From positions 1 through 27,483 of IMG/VR virus record IMGVR_UViG_3300009104_000099: a DNA stretch of 27,483 nucleotides; one strand, given 5' to 3'. Below are positions 12,367 through 22,289 of the stretch, one piece after another; within the stretch, counting starts at the first letter, position 1, and every line of letters begins with the position of its first letter. The translations under genes were made by a program, and so were the position numbers. The notes beneath the pieces were generated by a model. The model saw only the letters and a program-made list of their open reading frames with translations. It was not told the DNA's origin and made no database searches. This DNA comes from a virus.

Positions 12367-13212
12367 ATGGCATTTATTAATAGTCAAAGACATATTGGTA
12401 CTGTTGGTTTACAACCGCCAGAAACTCTTGGTGGAACTGAAACCTTCTACAGTAATTTTAAAGTACATACGTTTTTAACATCTGGAACATTTACTGTTTT
12501 AGGTAGTGAGGATGTAACGTGTGATGTACTTGCGATTGCTGGTGGAGGCGGAGGCGGAACAAACCAAGGCGGTGGCGGAGCAGGAGGCATGGTTGAACAA
12601 CCTACTGTAACAATTTCGCCTGGCGTTTATAACATTGTAGTTGGAAATGGTGGAACGCAAACCTCGGATGGTTTTGATACTACCACAGGAATTTCTGGTG
12701 TAGCAACTGCTGTTGGTGGCGGACATAACAACGGGGCAGGTGGTTCTGGTTCGGGTGGTGGAACGTCAAGCCAAGGTGGTGGGGCTGGAACAGCTGGACA
12801 AGGAAATAATGGCGGGGGCGGAGCAAACTGCGGAGGCGTAACTGGTGGCGGAGGCGGTGGCGGTGCAGGAGCCGCTGGTAATGGAGCGCCAGGTTTTGGT
12901 GGATGCCCAGGCTGTGGTGGATGTAACGGTGGTGGTTCTGGCGTTGGCGGAGTTGGATTAGAAAATTTATTTCGTACAGGATCAAATCAATTTTACGCTG
13001 GAGGCGGCGGAGGCGGAGGCGGTAACGTATCTGGTAATGGTGGTGAAGCTGCTGGTGGTAATGGTGGCGGTGGAAATCCAGGCGCAAGTCCAGGCCCTGC
13101 TGACGGTGGTGAAAATCAAGGTGGTGGTGGACATGGACAGGGTAGTGGTTCAAATCCAGGCACTGGCGGAAGGGGAATAGTTGTTATACGAGCACCTTTC
13201 CCGATAGTATAA
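12367..13212 (+). CDS. Glycine-rich adhesin-like protein (polyglycine domain)
   Basis: This 281-aa protein has a short N-terminus, then a beta segment (KVHTFLTSGTFTVLG, DVLAIAGGGGGGTNQ) and a long polyglycine region to near the C-terminus, which ends GGRGIVVIRAPF. This layout matches glycine-rich fibre tip domains, and runs of glycine can pack as polyglycine-II helices as in the gp38 adhesin of T-even phages. Three cysteines stand close together at residues 180, 183 and 186 (CPGCGGC), with another at 155. The gene starts three bases after the preceding fibre stop without a clear ribosome binding site, so it may be translated together with it and act as its tip adhesin. Local GC content is clearly higher than around it because of GGC/GGA codons. 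Confidence 0.8.
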   Translation: MAFINSQRHIGTVGLQPPETLGGTETFYSNFKVHTFLTSGTFTVLGSEDVTCDVLAIAGGGGGGTNQGGGGAGGMVEQPTVTISPGVYNIVVGNGGTQTSDGFDTTTGISGVATAVGGGHNNGAGGSGSGGGTSSQGGGAGTAGQGNNGGGGANCGGVTGGGGGGGAGAAGNGAPGFGGCPGCGGCNGGGSGVGGVGLENLFRTGSNQFYAGGGGGGGGNVSGNGGEAAGGNGGGGNPGASPGPADGGENQGGGGHGQGSGSNPGTGGRGIVVIRAPFPIV

Positions 13213-13729: not shown

Positions 13730-14017
13730 ATGAAAGCAAGTGAAGCGAGAGAACAAGCACGAACTCAAGCACAGCGGGAACAAAATATGACATGGCAGGA
13801 AATTCGTGATGACTCTATTAGTAAATTAAAAGATATAGCAACAGCAGTAACTAGTGGTTTTATAGAAAAAGAAATACAAGCTGAACGATATTCAATATGT
13901 GAGGATTGTTCTCAATTTAAAAAATCAACAAGACAATGTAAAATATGTAGTTGTTTTATGCCTGCAAAGACATTGTTTAATAGGTCGAGATGTCCTAAAG
14001 GTTATTGGAATAAATAA
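13730..14017 (+). CDS. Small Cys-rich, zinc-binding-like protein
   Basis: This 95-aa protein has a helical, charged N-terminal half and a cysteine-rich C-terminal part with C57-x2-C60, C70-x2-C73-x-C75 and C88. The two CxxC pairs suggest a zinc ribbon or knuckle, and the end CPKGYWNK is similar to small Cys-rich proteins I recall from marine phages (DUF6171-like; not verifiable here). The start is the first ATG, three bases after the preceding stop, with an AAAGGA further upstream in that gene. Its position among fibre genes might indicate an assembly factor or minor structural part, but a regulatory or unrelated role is equally possible. Confidence 0.7.
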   Translation: MKASEAREQARTQAQREQNMTWQEIRDDSISKLKDIATAVTSGFIEKEIQAERYSICEDCSQFKKSTRQCKICSCFMPAKTLFNRSRCPKGYWNK

Positions 14018-15687: not shown

Positions 15688-16560
15688 ATGGCATTAATAA
15701 CTGTCAATTTAGTAGACACCTTTGATGAGTGGAGAGTTAAGACCAATAGTATTAGTGTAACTACTGGTGATCTTAATTCACTTAACACAAGTAATCAAAA
15801 TAGTTTAGTAGAATCCATTAATGAATTATTGGTAATCTCTGCAAGCAATTTGGATAATGTCGTTGAAGATACAACGCCTGAGCTTGGTGGCGATTTAGAC
15901 TTGAATGGAAACAACATAACTGGAACTGGTAATATATCTATTACTGGTACTTTTAGTGGAGTACTTTCTGGAACGGTTACTGGTGTTACTCAAACAACTG
16001 GTGATGTTTCAGATAAACTTGCTACTACACAATTTGTTGCTAATACAACTATGTTACTTCCTCTTGCTGGTGATATTACTGGTAATGCTGGAGCAACTCA
16101 AATTGCTACGAATGTTGTTGGTATTACAGAGTTAGATGTTAGTGATGGAACAAATGGACAGTTACTTTCTACGGATGGTTCTGGAAATTTAAGTTTTGTT
16201 GATTCGGATTTAACAGTTGGTGGTGATTTATCAGGTACGTTAAGTAATGCACAGATAGTTGCTAATTCAGTTGGTATCAATGAACTTAATTTAGTGGATG
16301 GCACATCAGGTCAAGTATTAACGACAGATGGTTCTGGTGGAATAAGTTTTAAAACTGTTTTTACCGAAACTACTGTTACTCCAACCGCTAATCAAACAAT
16401 ATTTCCAATAGTATATGAAGTAGGTAGAATTTGTGTATATTTAAATGGTGTTAAGTTAGTAGGTGGTGGTTTAGACTATACTGCTAGTAATGGTACAGAC
16501 GTTACCCTTACTGCTGGTGTTAATACAACTGATACAGTCGAGTTCCATACATTTTTATAA
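15688..16560 (+). CDS. Tail fibre protein, FDEW-type N-terminus
   Basis: This 290-aa fibre starts with a helical head domain (DTFDEWRVKTNSI, NSLVESINELL) shared with the fibre at 21387. It then has the DTTPELGGDLDLNG motif (about residues 60-74), a beta repeat region with two DGxxGQxLxTDGxGxxSF copies and a VGGDLSGTLSNAQI segment, and a C-terminal domain of about 65 residues (VTPTANQTIF, VYLNGVKLV, DYTASNGTDV). That last domain is also present at the end of the 21387 fibre and as the separate 85-aa gene at 22736. The start has an AGAGGA ribosome binding site. A hairpin follows the gene, so it probably ends a transcription unit. Confidence 0.85.
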   Translation: MALITVNLVDTFDEWRVKTNSISVTTGDLNSLNTSNQNSLVESINELLVISASNLDNVVEDTTPELGGDLDLNGNNITGTGNISITGTFSGVLSGTVTGVTQTTGDVSDKLATTQFVANTTMLLPLAGDITGNAGATQIATNVVGITELDVSDGTNGQLLSTDGSGNLSFVDSDLTVGGDLSGTLSNAQIVANSVGINELNLVDGTSGQVLTTDGSGGISFKTVFTETTVTPTANQTIFPIVYEVGRICVYLNGVKLVGGGLDYTASNGTDVTLTAGVNTTDTVEFHTFL

Positions 16561-16636: not shown

Positions 16637-17521
16637 ATGTCAGAGTTTATTTTAAATGACCAAGATGTAAATGCGAATGATAAGTACTTGTCTGATAAAC
16701 ACCCACTTAAATCACTTTTTAGTATAAAGCAGTGTTGGACAACCCCTATTGGAGAGATAGATATAAATCTTCCAGAGGATATGCGAATAGCATTGATTGA
16801 GTATATTGCATCAAAGGGTTACTGTACAACAATGGGAACTCATAAGAGAACTCAAACTAGAGAGTTTGAAGAAAATCATTATAATCTTTTTGATGAGAAA
16901 GATAATAACGAACATATAAAAAAGTTTGAGGAATATTCTTCTGAATTGATTAGGTATTATATTGCCAATGGTTATAATATTGGGAATGTAGAAACCTTTG
17001 ATATTGATGCTAGAGCATTTGGTAATATGCAAACAGCGGGAAGAAGAACTTATCCGCATTATCATCATGGGTTTGATGGAGTTATGATATGCTATCTTAC
17101 AGTAGGAAGTGAATTTGTATTAACGACAGATTTAGAAGGTACAGATGATACGCAATTAGTTGTATCGCCTGGTTCTAGTATTTGTCGAATACCACAAACC
17201 GAATTAAAAAAAATAGAAGATACTTCAAATGAAGTAAAAGCAGATTATGGTAGTTTTGAGTTAAAGGTACAGGATATGCCGTGTGAGGGTGATGGTACTA
17301 TGTTACTCCAAGACCCACGGCCTGCGATTAATTATCCTTATAATAATAAAGCTCAAGACTATCAACCGAAAGTTGGGAGATGTGTTTTTCACCCAGCATA
17401 TATTTGGCATGAGTCCAACACCTATAACACTAAGGGTGTTCGGGCAGCAGTTGTAGTTAACTACCGTGTGCTTACACACAATAATAGTGGATTAGTAAGA
17501 CCTTTATCAAAACCCGAATAG
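16637..17521 (+). CDS. Putative 2OG-Fe(II) oxygenase (paralogue 1)
   Basis: This 294-aa protein has the layout of putative 2OG-Fe(II) oxygenases of the PF13759 type, which use 2-oxoglutarate, oxygen and iron to hydroxylate or otherwise oxidise a substrate. Visible motifs are YPHYHHGFDGVMICYL (H141, H143, D147 as candidate metal ligands), LLQDPRPAINYP, and HPAYIWHESN with H258 as the distal ligand, followed by R269 in RAAVVVNYRV as the likely 2OG-binding residue. It is a clear paralogue of the protein at 19205, from which it differs by a longer insert after the first motif (about residues 154-217). The ATG has a strong AAGAGGAGAG ribosome binding site and a late promoter. The substrate is unknown; neighbouring fibre-like proteins are candidates. 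Confidence 0.75.
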   Translation: MSEFILNDQDVNANDKYLSDKHPLKSLFSIKQCWTTPIGEIDINLPEDMRIALIEYIASKGYCTTMGTHKRTQTREFEENHYNLFDEKDNNEHIKKFEEYSSELIRYYIANGYNIGNVETFDIDARAFGNMQTAGRRTYPHYHHGFDGVMICYLTVGSEFVLTTDLEGTDDTQLVVSPGSSICRIPQTELKKIEDTSNEVKADYGSFELKVQDMPCEGDGTMLLQDPRPAINYPYNNKAQDYQPKVGRCVFHPAYIWHESNTYNTKGVRAAVVVNYRVLTHNNSGLVRPLSKPE

Positions 17522-17593: not shown

Positions 17594-18007
17594 ATGACTA
17601 TTGCACGACAAATCGCTGACCTAATTGATACAGGTGGAGATGTTAAATTAAGTAACTTGGATAATGTTCCGCCTAGTGATTGGAATACTCTTTTGAATAG
17701 ACCAGATCATGCGAATACAGATACACGAAATGCAAGCAACATCACTTCTGGTACTTTGTCCCAAGCTCGTATGGGTTCTGGAACAACGAATAGTTCAACA
17801 TACTTGCGTGGTGATGGTACATGGACTGCTGCTTGTCAAACTACAGTTTATACAAATTGTAATAACACAAGTGGAAACTGTACAAACCATGCGAATTGTG
17901 CCACAGCTGGTAGTTCTTATACCAACTGTAACTTTTCAACATCTAAAGTAAATCAAATTAATGCATTTAATTGTGCTTGCGATTGTGCTTGCGCTTGTAA
18001 CTGTTAA
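17594..18007 (+). CDS. Short fibre-like protein with Cys-rich C-terminus
   Basis: This 137-aa protein has two very different halves. Residues 1-80 look like a short phage fibre segment (VKLSNLDNVPPSDWNTLLN, then SGTLSQARMGSG and TYLRGDGTWTA) and contain no cysteine. Residues 81-137 contain 11 cysteines (81, 89, 96, 102, 112, 127, 129, 131, 133, 135, 137) and end in alternating CACDCACACNC, with Cys as the final residue. Asn precedes Cys six times. Such a tail could bind metal, form disulfides, or be the substrate of a modifying enzyme; the radical SAM protein nearby makes the last idea attractive. An AAGAGGAAA ribosome binding site supports the start. No known family is recognised for the Cys-rich part. 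Confidence 0.75.
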   Translation: MTIARQIADLIDTGGDVKLSNLDNVPPSDWNTLLNRPDHANTDTRNASNITSGTLSQARMGSGTTNSSTYLRGDGTWTAACQTTVYTNCNNTSGNCTNHANCATAGSSYTNCNFSTSKVNQINAFNCACDCACACNC

Positions 18008-19204: not shown

Positions 19205-20020
19205 ATGAGCAAACCAGAACATTTAAAATACTACGAAAATTTAGAACCAGAGGCAAAAGATACTAGAAAGCATCATTTAGACGATCATGTAAGAATAGAT
19301 CATAAGTGGACAACACCATTTTTTGAAATGGATGGTGTATTGCCTAAAAAAATGAGAGATGATTTATGTCGAGTCTTGGAAAAAAAAGAACTTGACATGA
19401 AAGCTGTGAAAGAAAAAGAACCCGAATTTTATTCTATTGCACAATCAAAGGGTTTCTATGCAACAACTCATTACAATCTTTTTGCTGAAGAAGATATGAA
19501 TGAGTTTCCAAATGAAAAAGAATCCATACTAGCTTATGAAAAATTAGCTATGGAGCAAATTCGTTATTACATTCGTAAAGGTTGGGGTGTACAACAAGCA
19601 GATGACATGAGACTTGAAGGAAGATGTTTTGGTAATGTCCAAAGTGCAAGTGATCAGCAAGGTGGAGCTCGAACTTATCCTCACTATCATCAAGATATGA
19701 ATGGTGTATTAGTTCATTACCTAAGAATCGGTGATGAAGAAGTGCCTCTTGATAAACAACTACAAGTTGGTCAGGAGCAGTCATCAAGACATGGTTCACA
19801 TCAAGTTTTATTTCAAGACCCTCGCCCCTCTATCAACTATCCTTTTTGGGAAAAGATTTATGCGGTATCGCCGAGAGTAGGACTTACACTCATTCATCCA
19901 AACTATGTTTGGCATGAAACTAATCCATGGCTAGGAAAAGGTACAAGGGTATGCATTGTTGTTAATTTTAGAGTTATGTCGCATGGATATAACGAATTGT
20001 CAATACCACTTAGGGGATAA
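19205..20020 (+). CDS. Putative 2OG-Fe(II) oxygenase (paralogue 2)
   Basis: This 271-aa protein is the paralogue of the one at 16637. Shared blocks are an N-terminal WTTPFFEMDGVLPKKM, HYNLFAEED, EQIRYYIRKGWGV, FGNVQSA, YPHYHQDMNGVLVHYL (H160, H162 candidate metal ligands), LFQDPRPSINYPF, and HPNYVWHETNPW with H237, followed by R248 in RVCIVVNFRV. At the place of D147 in paralogue 1 it has N166, so the exact metal ligands cannot be fixed by eye. It lacks the long insert of paralogue 1. A GAGAGG ribosome binding site precedes the ATG. The radical SAM gene follows six bases after its stop, suggesting that both enzymes are made together and act on related substrates. Confidence 0.75.
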   Translation: MSKPEHLKYYENLEPEAKDTRKHHLDDHVRIDHKWTTPFFEMDGVLPKKMRDDLCRVLEKKELDMKAVKEKEPEFYSIAQSKGFYATTHYNLFAEEDMNEFPNEKESILAYEKLAMEQIRYYIRKGWGVQQADDMRLEGRCFGNVQSASDQQGGARTYPHYHQDMNGVLVHYLRIGDEEVPLDKQLQVGQEQSSRHGSHQVLFQDPRPSINYPFWEKIYAVSPRVGLTLIHPNYVWHETNPWLGKGTRVCIVVNFRVMSHGYNELSIPLRG

Positions 20021-20026
20021 TATAAT

Positions 20027-21406
20027 ATGGCACAGTTTAAATTTTATTTAGAGAGAGCTGCTACAGAAGATCGGCCTGCAGAAAAAGATGTTTTAACTTA
20101 TGATAACATGACCTCTCAAATGTGGATGCAAAATGGTGATATCTGTTTACCTCAAGATTTGTTTAATGATTGGGATGAGCTTGAAGCATGGAAGATGAAT
20201 GCTGGTAAAGGAAACCTAAAGAAAATAAAAATCAACTTGGGATTAAAATGTAATTACTCTTGTGATTATTGTTCACAGAGATTTGTTCCAAGAAATAAAG
20301 ACGATCATTTGGACACATCAGATTTTTATAGTATATCTGATGCAGAGATCGAAGAATATGTTAACAAGTTTGACAGCATAAGCATAGATAAAGAACCCCA
20401 CTTTGAGTTATGGGGTGGTGAACCATTTTTATATTGGAAAACAATGAAACCTTTAATTGAAAGGTTACATGAAAAATGGCCAGAATCTACTTATAGTGTT
20501 ATTACTAATGGTTCAATGTTTACAGATGAAATTATAGATTTCATTGTTAAACATAATATACAAATTTCTGTTTCACATGATGGGCCAGGACAACCAACTA
20601 GAGGGCCTGATCCATTTGATGATCCAGAAAAAGCAAAGATGATTCAGAAACTAAAAAACAAATTAGCACCTAATGGTAAGATGTCTTTTAATTCTATGAT
20701 TCATAAAGACAATCCAAGTAGGGCTGAAGTTCAAAGATATTTTCGCAACAAAGTAGGAAATATGCCTATTGGAGAAGGTGGTACAGTAGATGCATATGAT
20801 GAAGGTGGATTAAATAATTCTTGGCGTACCGAAGAAGAACATTTAGAGTATAGAAGAAATGCTTTTTCAGAAATTGTTACAGGAAAAGCACCAAACTTTA
20901 TTATCATAAGACAAAAGATTGATAATTGGGTTAAATCACTAAGAGGACAAAGACCTGCTGAAGCATTAAATCAAAAGTGTGGTATGGATGATCCTCAAAC
21001 TATGGCAGTTGATATGAATGGTAATATAACAACTTGTCAAAATGTTACAGCATCATCAACCAATAGTGCTGGAATAAGTCATAAGATTGGAAATCTTGAT
21101 GAAGGGGATGAAGGTCTTTCAAAAATCAAGATCAATCCAGGCACACATTGGTCTGATAGAAAAGAATGTGGTGATTGTCCTGTATTACAATTATGTCATG
21201 GGTCTTGTTTATTTCTTGCACCCGATTCAGAGTATTGGGATATATCTTGTAACAATGCTTTTAGTGATAATGTAGTTTGGTTAGCAGCTGCATTATATGA
21301 GTTGTCAAATGGAATGGTACTTTATAAAATCGAAGGCCCACAAAGGGAATCTAGACAAGATATATTTGGATTTGAGGCGATAGAAAATGCAAGTAACAAT
21401 AACTAA
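20027..21406 (+). CDS. Radical SAM protein with SPASM domain
   Basis: This 459-aa protein has the radical SAM cluster motif C75-x3-C79-x2-C82 (CNYSCDYC) and the SAM-binding GGEP motif at 130-133. Its C-terminal part carries all seven SPASM cysteines in the expected spacing: C318-x13-G-x4-C337, C381-x2-C384-x5-C390-x3-C394 and C408. SPASM proteins hold two further iron-sulfur clusters and typically modify peptides or proteins (sulfatase maturation, thioether bonds, epimerisation). No RiPP precursor gene or recognisable leader-binding domain is seen. The gene is behind the second 2OG oxygenase-like gene and overlaps the next fibre gene by 20 nt, so production of enzyme and fibre is probably linked. 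The substrate is unknown; the Cys-rich fibre-like protein and the overlapping fibre are the obvious candidates. Confidence 0.85.
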   Translation: MAQFKFYLERAATEDRPAEKDVLTYDNMTSQMWMQNGDICLPQDLFNDWDELEAWKMNAGKGNLKKIKINLGLKCNYSCDYCSQRFVPRNKDDHLDTSDFYSISDAEIEEYVNKFDSISIDKEPHFELWGGEPFLYWKTMKPLIERLHEKWPESTYSVITNGSMFTDEIIDFIVKHNIQISVSHDGPGQPTRGPDPFDDPEKAKMIQKLKNKLAPNGKMSFNSMIHKDNPSRAEVQRYFRNKVGNMPIGEGGTVDAYDEGGLNNSWRTEEEHLEYRRNAFSEIVTGKAPNFIIIRQKIDNWVKSLRGQRPAEALNQKCGMDDPQTMAVDMNGNITTCQNVTASSTNSAGISHKIGNLDEGDEGLSKIKINPGTHWSDRKECGDCPVLQLCHGSCLFLAPDSEYWDISCNNAFSDNVVWLAAALYELSNGMVLYKIEGPQRESRQDIFGFEAIENASNNN

Positions 21407-22289
21407 AAAAGATTCTTTCAAATCTTGGATTGAAAAAACAAATTTAATCTCTGAAAATATTGGGGATTTAGATGATTTGAATACTACAAATAAAAGTAAT
21501 ATTGTTAATCCAATCAATGAAACATTAGGAACACTTCAAGGTGAATTGCAAAATGTTGTAGAAGATACTAACCCTGCTTTGGGTGGCCATTTAGACTTGA
21601 ATAGTTTTAAGATTACTGGGAATGGCAATATATCTATTATTGGTACAATGGATGTTACAAGTATTGTTGGTTCAACATTAGGATTCACTCAACTGTTGAC
21701 AGACGAATCTGATAAAATAGCAACAACAGCATATACAGGTGCAAAGGTAAGTGCTGTCGCTCCATCCGTTACATTTTCGGGTGATATATCAGGTGCTCCG
21801 CTTAGTAATCAAATTGAACCAAATGTAGTTGGTTTAACTGAATTAGATACAACCTTTTTTGATTCAGGTGGTCTTTTATTTGTCTCAACTCAAGGTAATG
21901 GGCAATTAAAGTTTATAAATACAGATAGTGTAGGTGCGATTGGTGGCGGTGATATCTCTGGTTCTATTGACTACCTAGAGATTAATCAAGGAGTAATAAA
22001 CGTCGCTGAACTTGATTTAGCAGATAGTTCAGTAGGACATATTGCGACTACGGATGGTGTGGGTGTAATTAATTTTAGACCTTCCGTAATAATTGATACG
22101 TTAACGCCCAATATCGGAGATCACACGTTTTTAGTTAATTATAATATTGGTAAAATAGTGGTTTATATGAACGGCATTAAGTTGGTTAATGGGGTTGATT
22201 TTACAGCAACCAATGGAACTCAGGTAGTGCTAACGCCTGCGGTTTCAACAAATAATACGACTCTTGAGTTTCAAAGATATTGTGTTTAA
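21387..22289 (+). CDS. Tail fibre protein, FDEW-like N-terminus (paralogue)
   Basis: This 300-aa fibre is related to the one at 15688 along its whole length: head domain (DSFKSWIEKTNLI, IVNPINETLG), DTNPALGGHLDLN motif (about residues 59-72), a variant TDGVGVINF repeat, a GGDISGSIDYLEI segment and the C-terminal domain of about 65 residues (VVYMNGIKLVNGVDFTATNG). Repeat units are more degenerate than in the other fibres. I chose the ATG at 21387, which lies inside the end of the radical SAM gene, because it gives the shared N-terminus and has a GAGG ribosome binding site. The 20-nt overlap suggests translational coupling with that enzyme. Confidence 0.83.
   Translation: MQVTITKKDSFKSWIEKTNLISENIGDLDDLNTTNKSNIVNPINETLGTLQGELQNVVEDTNPALGGHLDLNSFKITGNGNISIIGTMDVTSIVGSTLGFTQLLTDESDKIATTAYTGAKVSAVAPSVTFSGDISGAPLSNQIEPNVVGLTELDTTFFDSGGLLFVSTQGNGQLKFINTDSVGAIGGGDISGSIDYLEINQGVINVAELDLADSSVGHIATTDGVGVINFRPSVIIDTLTPNIGDHTFLVNYNIGKIVVYMNGIKLVNGVDFTATNGTQVVLTPAVSTNNTTLEFQRYCV

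Follow-up and report, generated by a model that had tools for sequence, protein, structure and literature searches.

A cysteine-tailed phage fibre-like protein as a candidate substrate of a co-occurring radical SAM/SPASM enzyme

Introduction

Radical SAM enzymes that carry the full SPASM signature usually target cysteines, either in ribosomal peptides or in small regions of proteins. PapB joins Cys to Asp by a thioether, CcpM matures Cys-rich peptides, and CteB is another thioether former. Phage radical SAM genes have been catalogued with the auxiliary metabolic genes or the Fe-S genes, and we know of no virion protein modified by such an enzyme; a phage fibre tip would be the first, if the reading developed below is true.

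By analogy, the best precedent in logic for the maturation of a fibre tail would be QhpD, a SPASM radical SAM enzyme that forms thioethers from Cys to Asp/Glu within a protein (PMC8172795). In the QhpD/QhpC pair, in which QhpC is the gamma subunit of quinohemoprotein amine dehydrogenase, the enzyme acts on the Cys of a working protein and not of a natural-product peptide, as we propose for the phage system; however, that pair is not viral, and its substrate as described in PMC8172795 has no alternating xCxC tail. The substrate of PapB is a short precursor peptide that carries Cys-Asp/Glu motifs (PMC9413430), and the PapB/freyrasin ranthipeptide system resembles ours in having a Cys-rich substrate with several modification sites, whereas the phage candidate substrate is the end of a fibre with [N/A/D]C motifs. 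Anaerobic sulfatase-maturating enzymes (anSMEs) are alike in fold, SPASM domain and action on Cys, but the tail described here carries no CxPxR site. Radical SAM cassettes have been reported inside the host-recognition cluster of pelagimyophages (PMC7029224), and many radical SAM genes in T4-like environmental viral genomes (PMC5332604); the portions of these two sources available to us make no connection to a Cys-tailed fibre or to fibre modification. Nor did the literature searched, which excluded preprints and most subscription journals, hold an earlier description of a radical SAM enzyme linked to fibres or virions. New here would be the move of a SPASM maturase and its Cys-rich substrate, a relation that we infer, into the structure of the virion.

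Results

A fibre-like protein ending in alternating cysteines

The window, by which we mean the whole stretch of DNA analysed, is a 27.5 kb viral fragment. The surroundings of its Cys-tailed fibre-like gene are T4-like and structural, with the baseplate wedge genes phrog_261, phrog_219 (Gp6-like) and phrog_438, and a DUF4815 protein, after whose gene come several fibre-like proteins in succession, a pair of 2OG-Fe(II) oxygenase-like genes and the gene for the SPASM enzyme (Table 1). The ATG of the fibre-like ORF is preceded by AAGAGGAAAAAGAA. An earlier note, made from the DNA alone, had described the product as fibre-like, free of Cys over residues 1–80 and then bearing 11 Cys, six of them after Asn and six alternating at the end (CACDCACACNC). 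The residue count agrees throughout: Cys occupies positions 81, 89, 96, 102, 112, 127, 129, 131, 133, 135 and 137, preceded in order by A, N, N, N, N, N, A, D, A, A and N. The fibre-like character held up as well, on the homology of the head to proteins of isolate phages and on the fibre-like neighbourhood; if either homology or neighbourhood is taken as the criterion for a phage tail fibre, the protein meets it. Its head is common to tail-less fibres of pelagiphages and roseophages, and the proteins of isolate phages with the same head sit close behind annotated tail fibres.

Table 1. Features of the proposed cassette in the window.
Feature	Coordinates	Strand	Remarks
2OG-Fe(II) oxygenase-like protein	16637..17521	+	phrog_81; accessory
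Cys-tailed fibre-like protein, 137 aa	17594..18007	+	head module MTIARQIADLIDTGGDVKLSNLDNVPPSDWNTLLNRP, then Cys region
Cys region, residues 81–137	17834..18004	+	NC/NCTNHANC repeats and terminal alternating cysteines; proposed substrate region
Tail core CACDCACACNC, last 11 residues	17972..18004	+	final CACNC invariant in 22/22
Conserved partner protein, 356 aa	18060..19130	+	next gene after the Cys-tailed fibre; Ig-like residues 262–356
Second 2OG-Fe(II) oxygenase-like protein	19205..20020	+	PF13759; directly before the radical SAM gene
Radical SAM/SPASM protein, 459 aa	20027..21406	+	proposed tail maturase

Searches of the fibre-like protein against Pfam and PHROGs matched no family. It has no Hint domain, and the tail itself is the end of the protein. 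RiPP precursors, understood as short peptides with a leader and a core, are not an adequate description of these candidates, which among the matches listed are fibre-like proteins of 81–1084 aa with a terminal Cys tail. No virion proteomics for Cys-tailed fibres was found in the literature text searched.

Other genes of the window have features of their own. A Gly-rich fibre-like protein (12367–13212; PF21722) holds an internal Cys cluster, GGCPGCGGCNGG, perhaps a metal site or a second target. A small protein at 13730–14017 (phrog_13558, of unknown function) has CxxC and CxxCxC motifs, and a relative is present in the cassette loci L085 and L092. Two similar-looking fibre-like proteins (15688–16560 and 21387–22289) stand one on each side of the cassette, possibly as a duplication or recombination frame.

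The tail is conserved at the level of amino acids

A protein search of IMG/VR found ten loci with the head MSxARxIADLLDxxGDV..LDNxPxxDW and an end of ACACNC or a close variant, some of them with two or three tandem copies of the Cys-tailed fibre gene. Scanning DNA for ACACNC followed by a stop gave 28 stretches; wherever these lay in real ORFs, the product was this fibre protein, with the exception of L019, a different fibre with an Mtd-type head. When 22 distinct relatives were aligned, the end CACNC was invariant in 22/22, and the roughly 40 residues before it were divergent and not alignable in detail. The Cys codons of the relatives' tails were 89 TGT and 21 TGC, and Ala was encoded by GCT, GCC, GCA and GCG. 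Since the residues of CACNC are fixed and the Cys and Ala codons differ only synonymously, selection acts on the amino acids of the tail; the same variation rules out slippage or a DNA repeat artefact as the source of the tail.

The Cys tail is more than chance: a terminal C.C.?C, at most two residues from the stop in ORFs of at least 80 aa, occurs in 1/953 control viral ORFs vs 54/2162 ORFs near a radical SAM gene (matches listed). The 54 representative tails among the listed matches hold 478 Cys, 67% of them after Asn, 18% after Ala, 4% after Asp and 4% after Gln; Asn makes up 17% of the non-Cys residues in the last 60 of these 54. In the same listed tails the commonest Cys-Cys offset is 2 (190 pairs), with 138 pairs at offset 4 and only five adjacent. 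An [N/A/D]C pattern with period-2 spacing is what a site-selective enzyme working repeatedly along the chain would be expected to leave. The fibre heads that bear the tail fall into several groups without detectable similarity to one another, and two Pelagibacter phages (HTVC204P and Gjalp) and Roseobacter phage CRP-804 have the head of the window protein with no Cys tail attached. In L099, L008, L010, L106, L213 and L229 the Cys-tailed fibre gene is repeated in tandem, as two or three copies that have diverged, looking as if several tips were displayed or exchanged.

A SPASM enzyme outside the curated subfamilies

Both the radical SAM domain (PF04055, 41.1 bits, cut-off 29.5) and the SPASM domain (TIGR04085, 36.1 bits, cut-off 27) of the enzyme were matched above cut-off. 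The CX3CX2C motif at 75/79/82, GGEP at 130–133 and the SPASM ligands C318-X13-G-X4-C337, C381-X2-C384-X5-C390-X3-C394 and C408 are invariant in 10 relatives; the SPASM signature is full, with ligands for two auxiliary clusters. PapB (NF047865) was the best NCBIfam match with 69 bits (4e-19), below its cut-off of 340, followed by CcpM (TIGR04068, 60 bits, below 500), anSME (TIGR03942, 56.8 bits, below 349) and the QHNDH maturase QhpD (TIGR03906, 56.3 bits, below 453). Going by these scores the enzyme is in no curated subfamily, and since all matches to named maturases lie far below their cut-offs, its reaction cannot be read from the family. The nearest solved structures by sequence are 8vpo (TigE), CteB and anSME; the best fold matches of the enzyme model are CteB and anSME, with the epimerase EpeE also among them. 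The model itself is of moderate quality (pLDDT 74, low at the cluster loops).

Tail and enzyme co-occur in both directions

For the tail the earlier note had offered metal binding, disulfide linkage or a role as substrate of the nearby SPASM enzyme, and it proposed co-occurrence with the radical SAM gene as a check, with many tail homologues lacking a radical SAM gene as the refuting case. From the enzyme side, a profile had 370 matching stretches in IMG/VR, with seven more in genomes, of which the best 80 were kept; the best 80 of 370 together with the other loci gave 62 enzyme clusters at 90% identity, 48 of them with at least 4.5 kb upstream. In 46 of these 48 dereplicated loci (best 80 of 370 plus others) the tail was found by pattern. 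The tail of L109 is cut by the contig start (NYNCNCNCACTCK*), which brings the total to 47/48 enzyme loci with a Cys-tailed fibre-like gene among the matches listed, and L155 is the sole enzyme of the 48 clusters without such a gene in reach, again among the matches listed. That enzyme may have another substrate. The L155 record also holds a second radical SAM gene. Because the tail pattern was refined after the first matches had been seen, we also give a uniform criterion (ORFs of at least 80 aa ending in C.C.?C), by which 46/53 representative enzyme loci among the matches listed have the tail vs 1/40 control loci.

What about the opposite direction? There are 13 ACACNC records that exceed a 4.1 kb fragment in length, and a radical SAM gene (40–100% identity) is present in every one. 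A second scan, for NCNCNC followed by a stop, ignored the enzyme and found, among the matches listed, fibre-type ORFs with quite different heads. Chance NCNCNC ends were split off from the fibre type and served as controls; they comprise 22 short, spurious frames and three protein families that are unrelated. Among the 50 NCNCNC records searched in the listed matches, 35 hold the enzyme at E 5e-77 or better; eight fibre-type records without it end 72–1420 bases after the tail, and the remaining 7/50 belong to three unrelated non-fibre families without a SPASM relative, with one weak radical SAM match in one family only (both counts from the matches listed). These families are L178, L225 and L237; L181, L211 and L230; and L219. 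A ninth tail record without the enzyme, L010, is the 4.1 kb fragment. Every tail record that runs on for more than about 1.5 kb behind the tail (at least 47 in number, and 33 when dereplicated) holds the enzyme, vs 1/36 control records (Fisher p = 6e-19); that single control record has a real Cys-tail ORF ending just before the enzyme. The three isolate genomes with the same head and no tail (HTVC204P, CRP-804 and Gjalp) have no enzyme. The refuting case was thus absent among the fibre-type proteins of the matches listed, where a tail without the enzyme was seen only in the three non-fibre families, which share just the last six residues. The pairing holds in both directions, with L155 as the one real exception (matches listed).

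Among candidates set aside, radical SAM matches in Campylobacter phages (26% coverage) have neighbouring genes without such a tail, and the JWF relatives Lumi and Seuss have a hub protein without a C.C motif and do not appear among the enzyme matches.

Other members of the cassette are common but vary between loci

The genes often follow one another in the order fibre, partner, 2OG, enzyme. Relatives of the partner gene occur in 37/49 loci among the matches listed, which rules it out as an obligatory component. Its model is confident (pLDDT 87) and shows an Ig-like domain at the C terminus, similar to those of intimin, invasin and the neck protein of phage Chi (Z ~10), which fits a virion or adhesion role; for the N-terminal part there was no match among those listed, the Ig domain filling the list. 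The second 2OG-like copy reaches PF13759 (31.9 bits, cut-off 27) and the first stays below it (22.0 bits). Loci hold 0–7 copies of 2OG-like genes, and only 30/49 have any (both among the matches listed), so that we regard these oxygenases as accessory and not as obligatory partners; the iterative 2OG profile may, moreover, have drifted to general 2OG proteins. The earlier note had named 2OG genes beside the radical SAM gene in its refuting case: the pairing with the radical SAM gene stands, and the 2OG part is weaker.

Among the matches listed, the tail gene lies 1 to 5300 bases upstream of the enzyme; it lies downstream in L147 and L074, and in L077 and L079 the fibre and enzyme genes are adjacent, with no 2OG or partner gene between them. 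The pair of tail and enzyme is the only constant element across the listed loci. At the level of gene content, tail and enzyme form a near-constant pair over very different phages, heads and neighbourhoods.

Discussion

Our data support the interpretation of the tail as a SPASM substrate; neither the chemistry nor the presence of the protein in virions has been shown. We consider it rather probable that, taken as a whole, the window gene encodes a small host-recognition fibre-type protein on which the SPASM enzyme at 20027–21406 acts, with the C-terminal 57 residues as its substrate. The parts of this explanation are not equally secure. That the enzyme modifies the fibre tail, as inferred from gene pairing and tail pattern, is very likely; a role of the tail at the receptor-binding tip, in contact with the host, is likely; and whether the inferred modification consists of thioether cross-links is a question on which we see the chances as even. 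The pairing speaks for a functional link and is not proof of an enzyme-substrate link: both proteins could serve a third.

In the proposed mechanism, the enzyme would abstract hydrogen from residues at [Asn/Ala/Asp]-Cys sites, and the Cys sulfur would be joined to a carbon of a nearby residue, giving thioether bridges in the alternating tail. Thioethers would be useful for a tip because the phage assembles in the reducing cytoplasm, where disulfides do not form; made there, they would yield a rigid, redox-proof fibre tip that can meet the surface of the host once the phage is released. In loci with 2OG oxygenases, these may add hydroxylations, and the Ig-domain protein may accompany the tip as a partner in the virion or in assembly.

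The enzyme could also act on the tail without forming thioethers, by epimerising alternate residues as PoyD-type enzymes and EpeE do, or by oxidising Cys to formylglycine as anSME does. The period-2 alternation (190 Cys pairs at offset 2 and 138 at offset 4 in the matches listed) would suit a chemistry that addresses every second residue, anSME and EpeE are among the fold matches, and the enzyme of phage JWF is annotated as an anaerobic sulfatase-maturating enzyme. On the other hand, the Cys region of the window protein contains neither the anSME motif CxPxR nor any proline, and the best family match (PapB) and the best fold match (CteB) are both thioether formers; we therefore hold this reading to be unlikely, without dismissing it. 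More improbable still is an unmodified tip that binds iron, zinc, copper or a cluster, with the enzyme serving something else in the host-recognition island. CxC ladders do resemble metal ligands, and iron-containing tail parts are known in other phages. Host-recognition islands of pelagimyophages gain radical SAM cassettes, as far as the available part of PMC7029224 reports. Yet the enzyme tracks the tail and not the island (47/48, matches listed), including loci without 2OG or partner genes and other phage backgrounds, and fibres with the same head and no tail are also without the enzyme.

Shared descent needs no substrate at all: both genes might merely travel in a mobile host-recognition cassette. 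The often-kept gene order does point to a real common descent of the cassette, but what divergent members still share is tail and enzyme alone: the heads, the partner, the 2OG genes and the distance between tail and enzyme (1 to 5300 bases) all vary, and L147 and L074 have the tail gene on the other side of the enzyme, so that only a slim chance is left for linkage by descent alone. A tail joined by disulfides after release, with no enzyme needed, would account for the high Cys content; we reject it as hardly credible, since it leaves the constant enzyme unexplained, the Cys of an alternating xCxC pair poorly with their neighbours, and phages assemble in the cytoplasm before any oxidation.

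Returning to the tail as an enzyme substrate, a broader proposal is that phages have a dedicated SPASM maturase which, after translation, gives their fibres a thioether-laddered or otherwise radical-modified tip, and that siphoviruses, T4-like myoviruses and unclassified aquatic phages all use this tip as an exchangeable part for receptor binding; this may or may not prove right, and we would not lean to either side. If it is true, covalent radical chemistry joins the ways in which viruses build receptor-binding tips. A radical SAM subfamily of 370 IMG/VR stretches gains a concrete, testable substrate candidate, and peptide engineering is offered a new family of enzymes whose substrate, [N/A/D]C repeats, is simple and encoded in the sequence.

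With the Achromobacter phages JWF and 2-1, two cultured isolates with tail and enzyme are at hand in which the pairing can be tested. Burkholderia paludis MSh1 (L162) and Limnohabitans sp. Rim28 (L160) hold the pair in apparent prophages and are therefore further culturable hosts. In JWF and 2-1 a T4 gp36-like fibre (annotated as such in JWF) bears an NCNCDCNC tail with a Hint domain directly behind it, followed by one gene and then the enzyme; in JWF gene 28 the Cys tail ends in ...RQNCNCDCNCNCS before the Hint domain (PF05203, 47.5 bits, cut-off 32.1). The order tail-Hint recurs in B. paludis MSh1 and L075. Hint domains excise themselves, and the tail would therefore again become the C terminus, a step that we infer; in JWF-like phages, self-removal of the Hint domain would expose the same end that the window protein has from the start. 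Providencia phage PSTNGR1 resembles JWF gene 28 in having a Hint domain at the end of a fibre, but without a Cys tail, whereas in JWF, 2-1 and MSh1 a tail immediately precedes that domain and the enzyme gene is close by; the Hint domain is therefore not specific to the tail/enzyme system. In L147 (11262–11290) and L074 (5372–5440) the Cys tail is followed by a SKIICTKL...EYGEWL domain, a third C-terminal state after the tail besides none and Hint.
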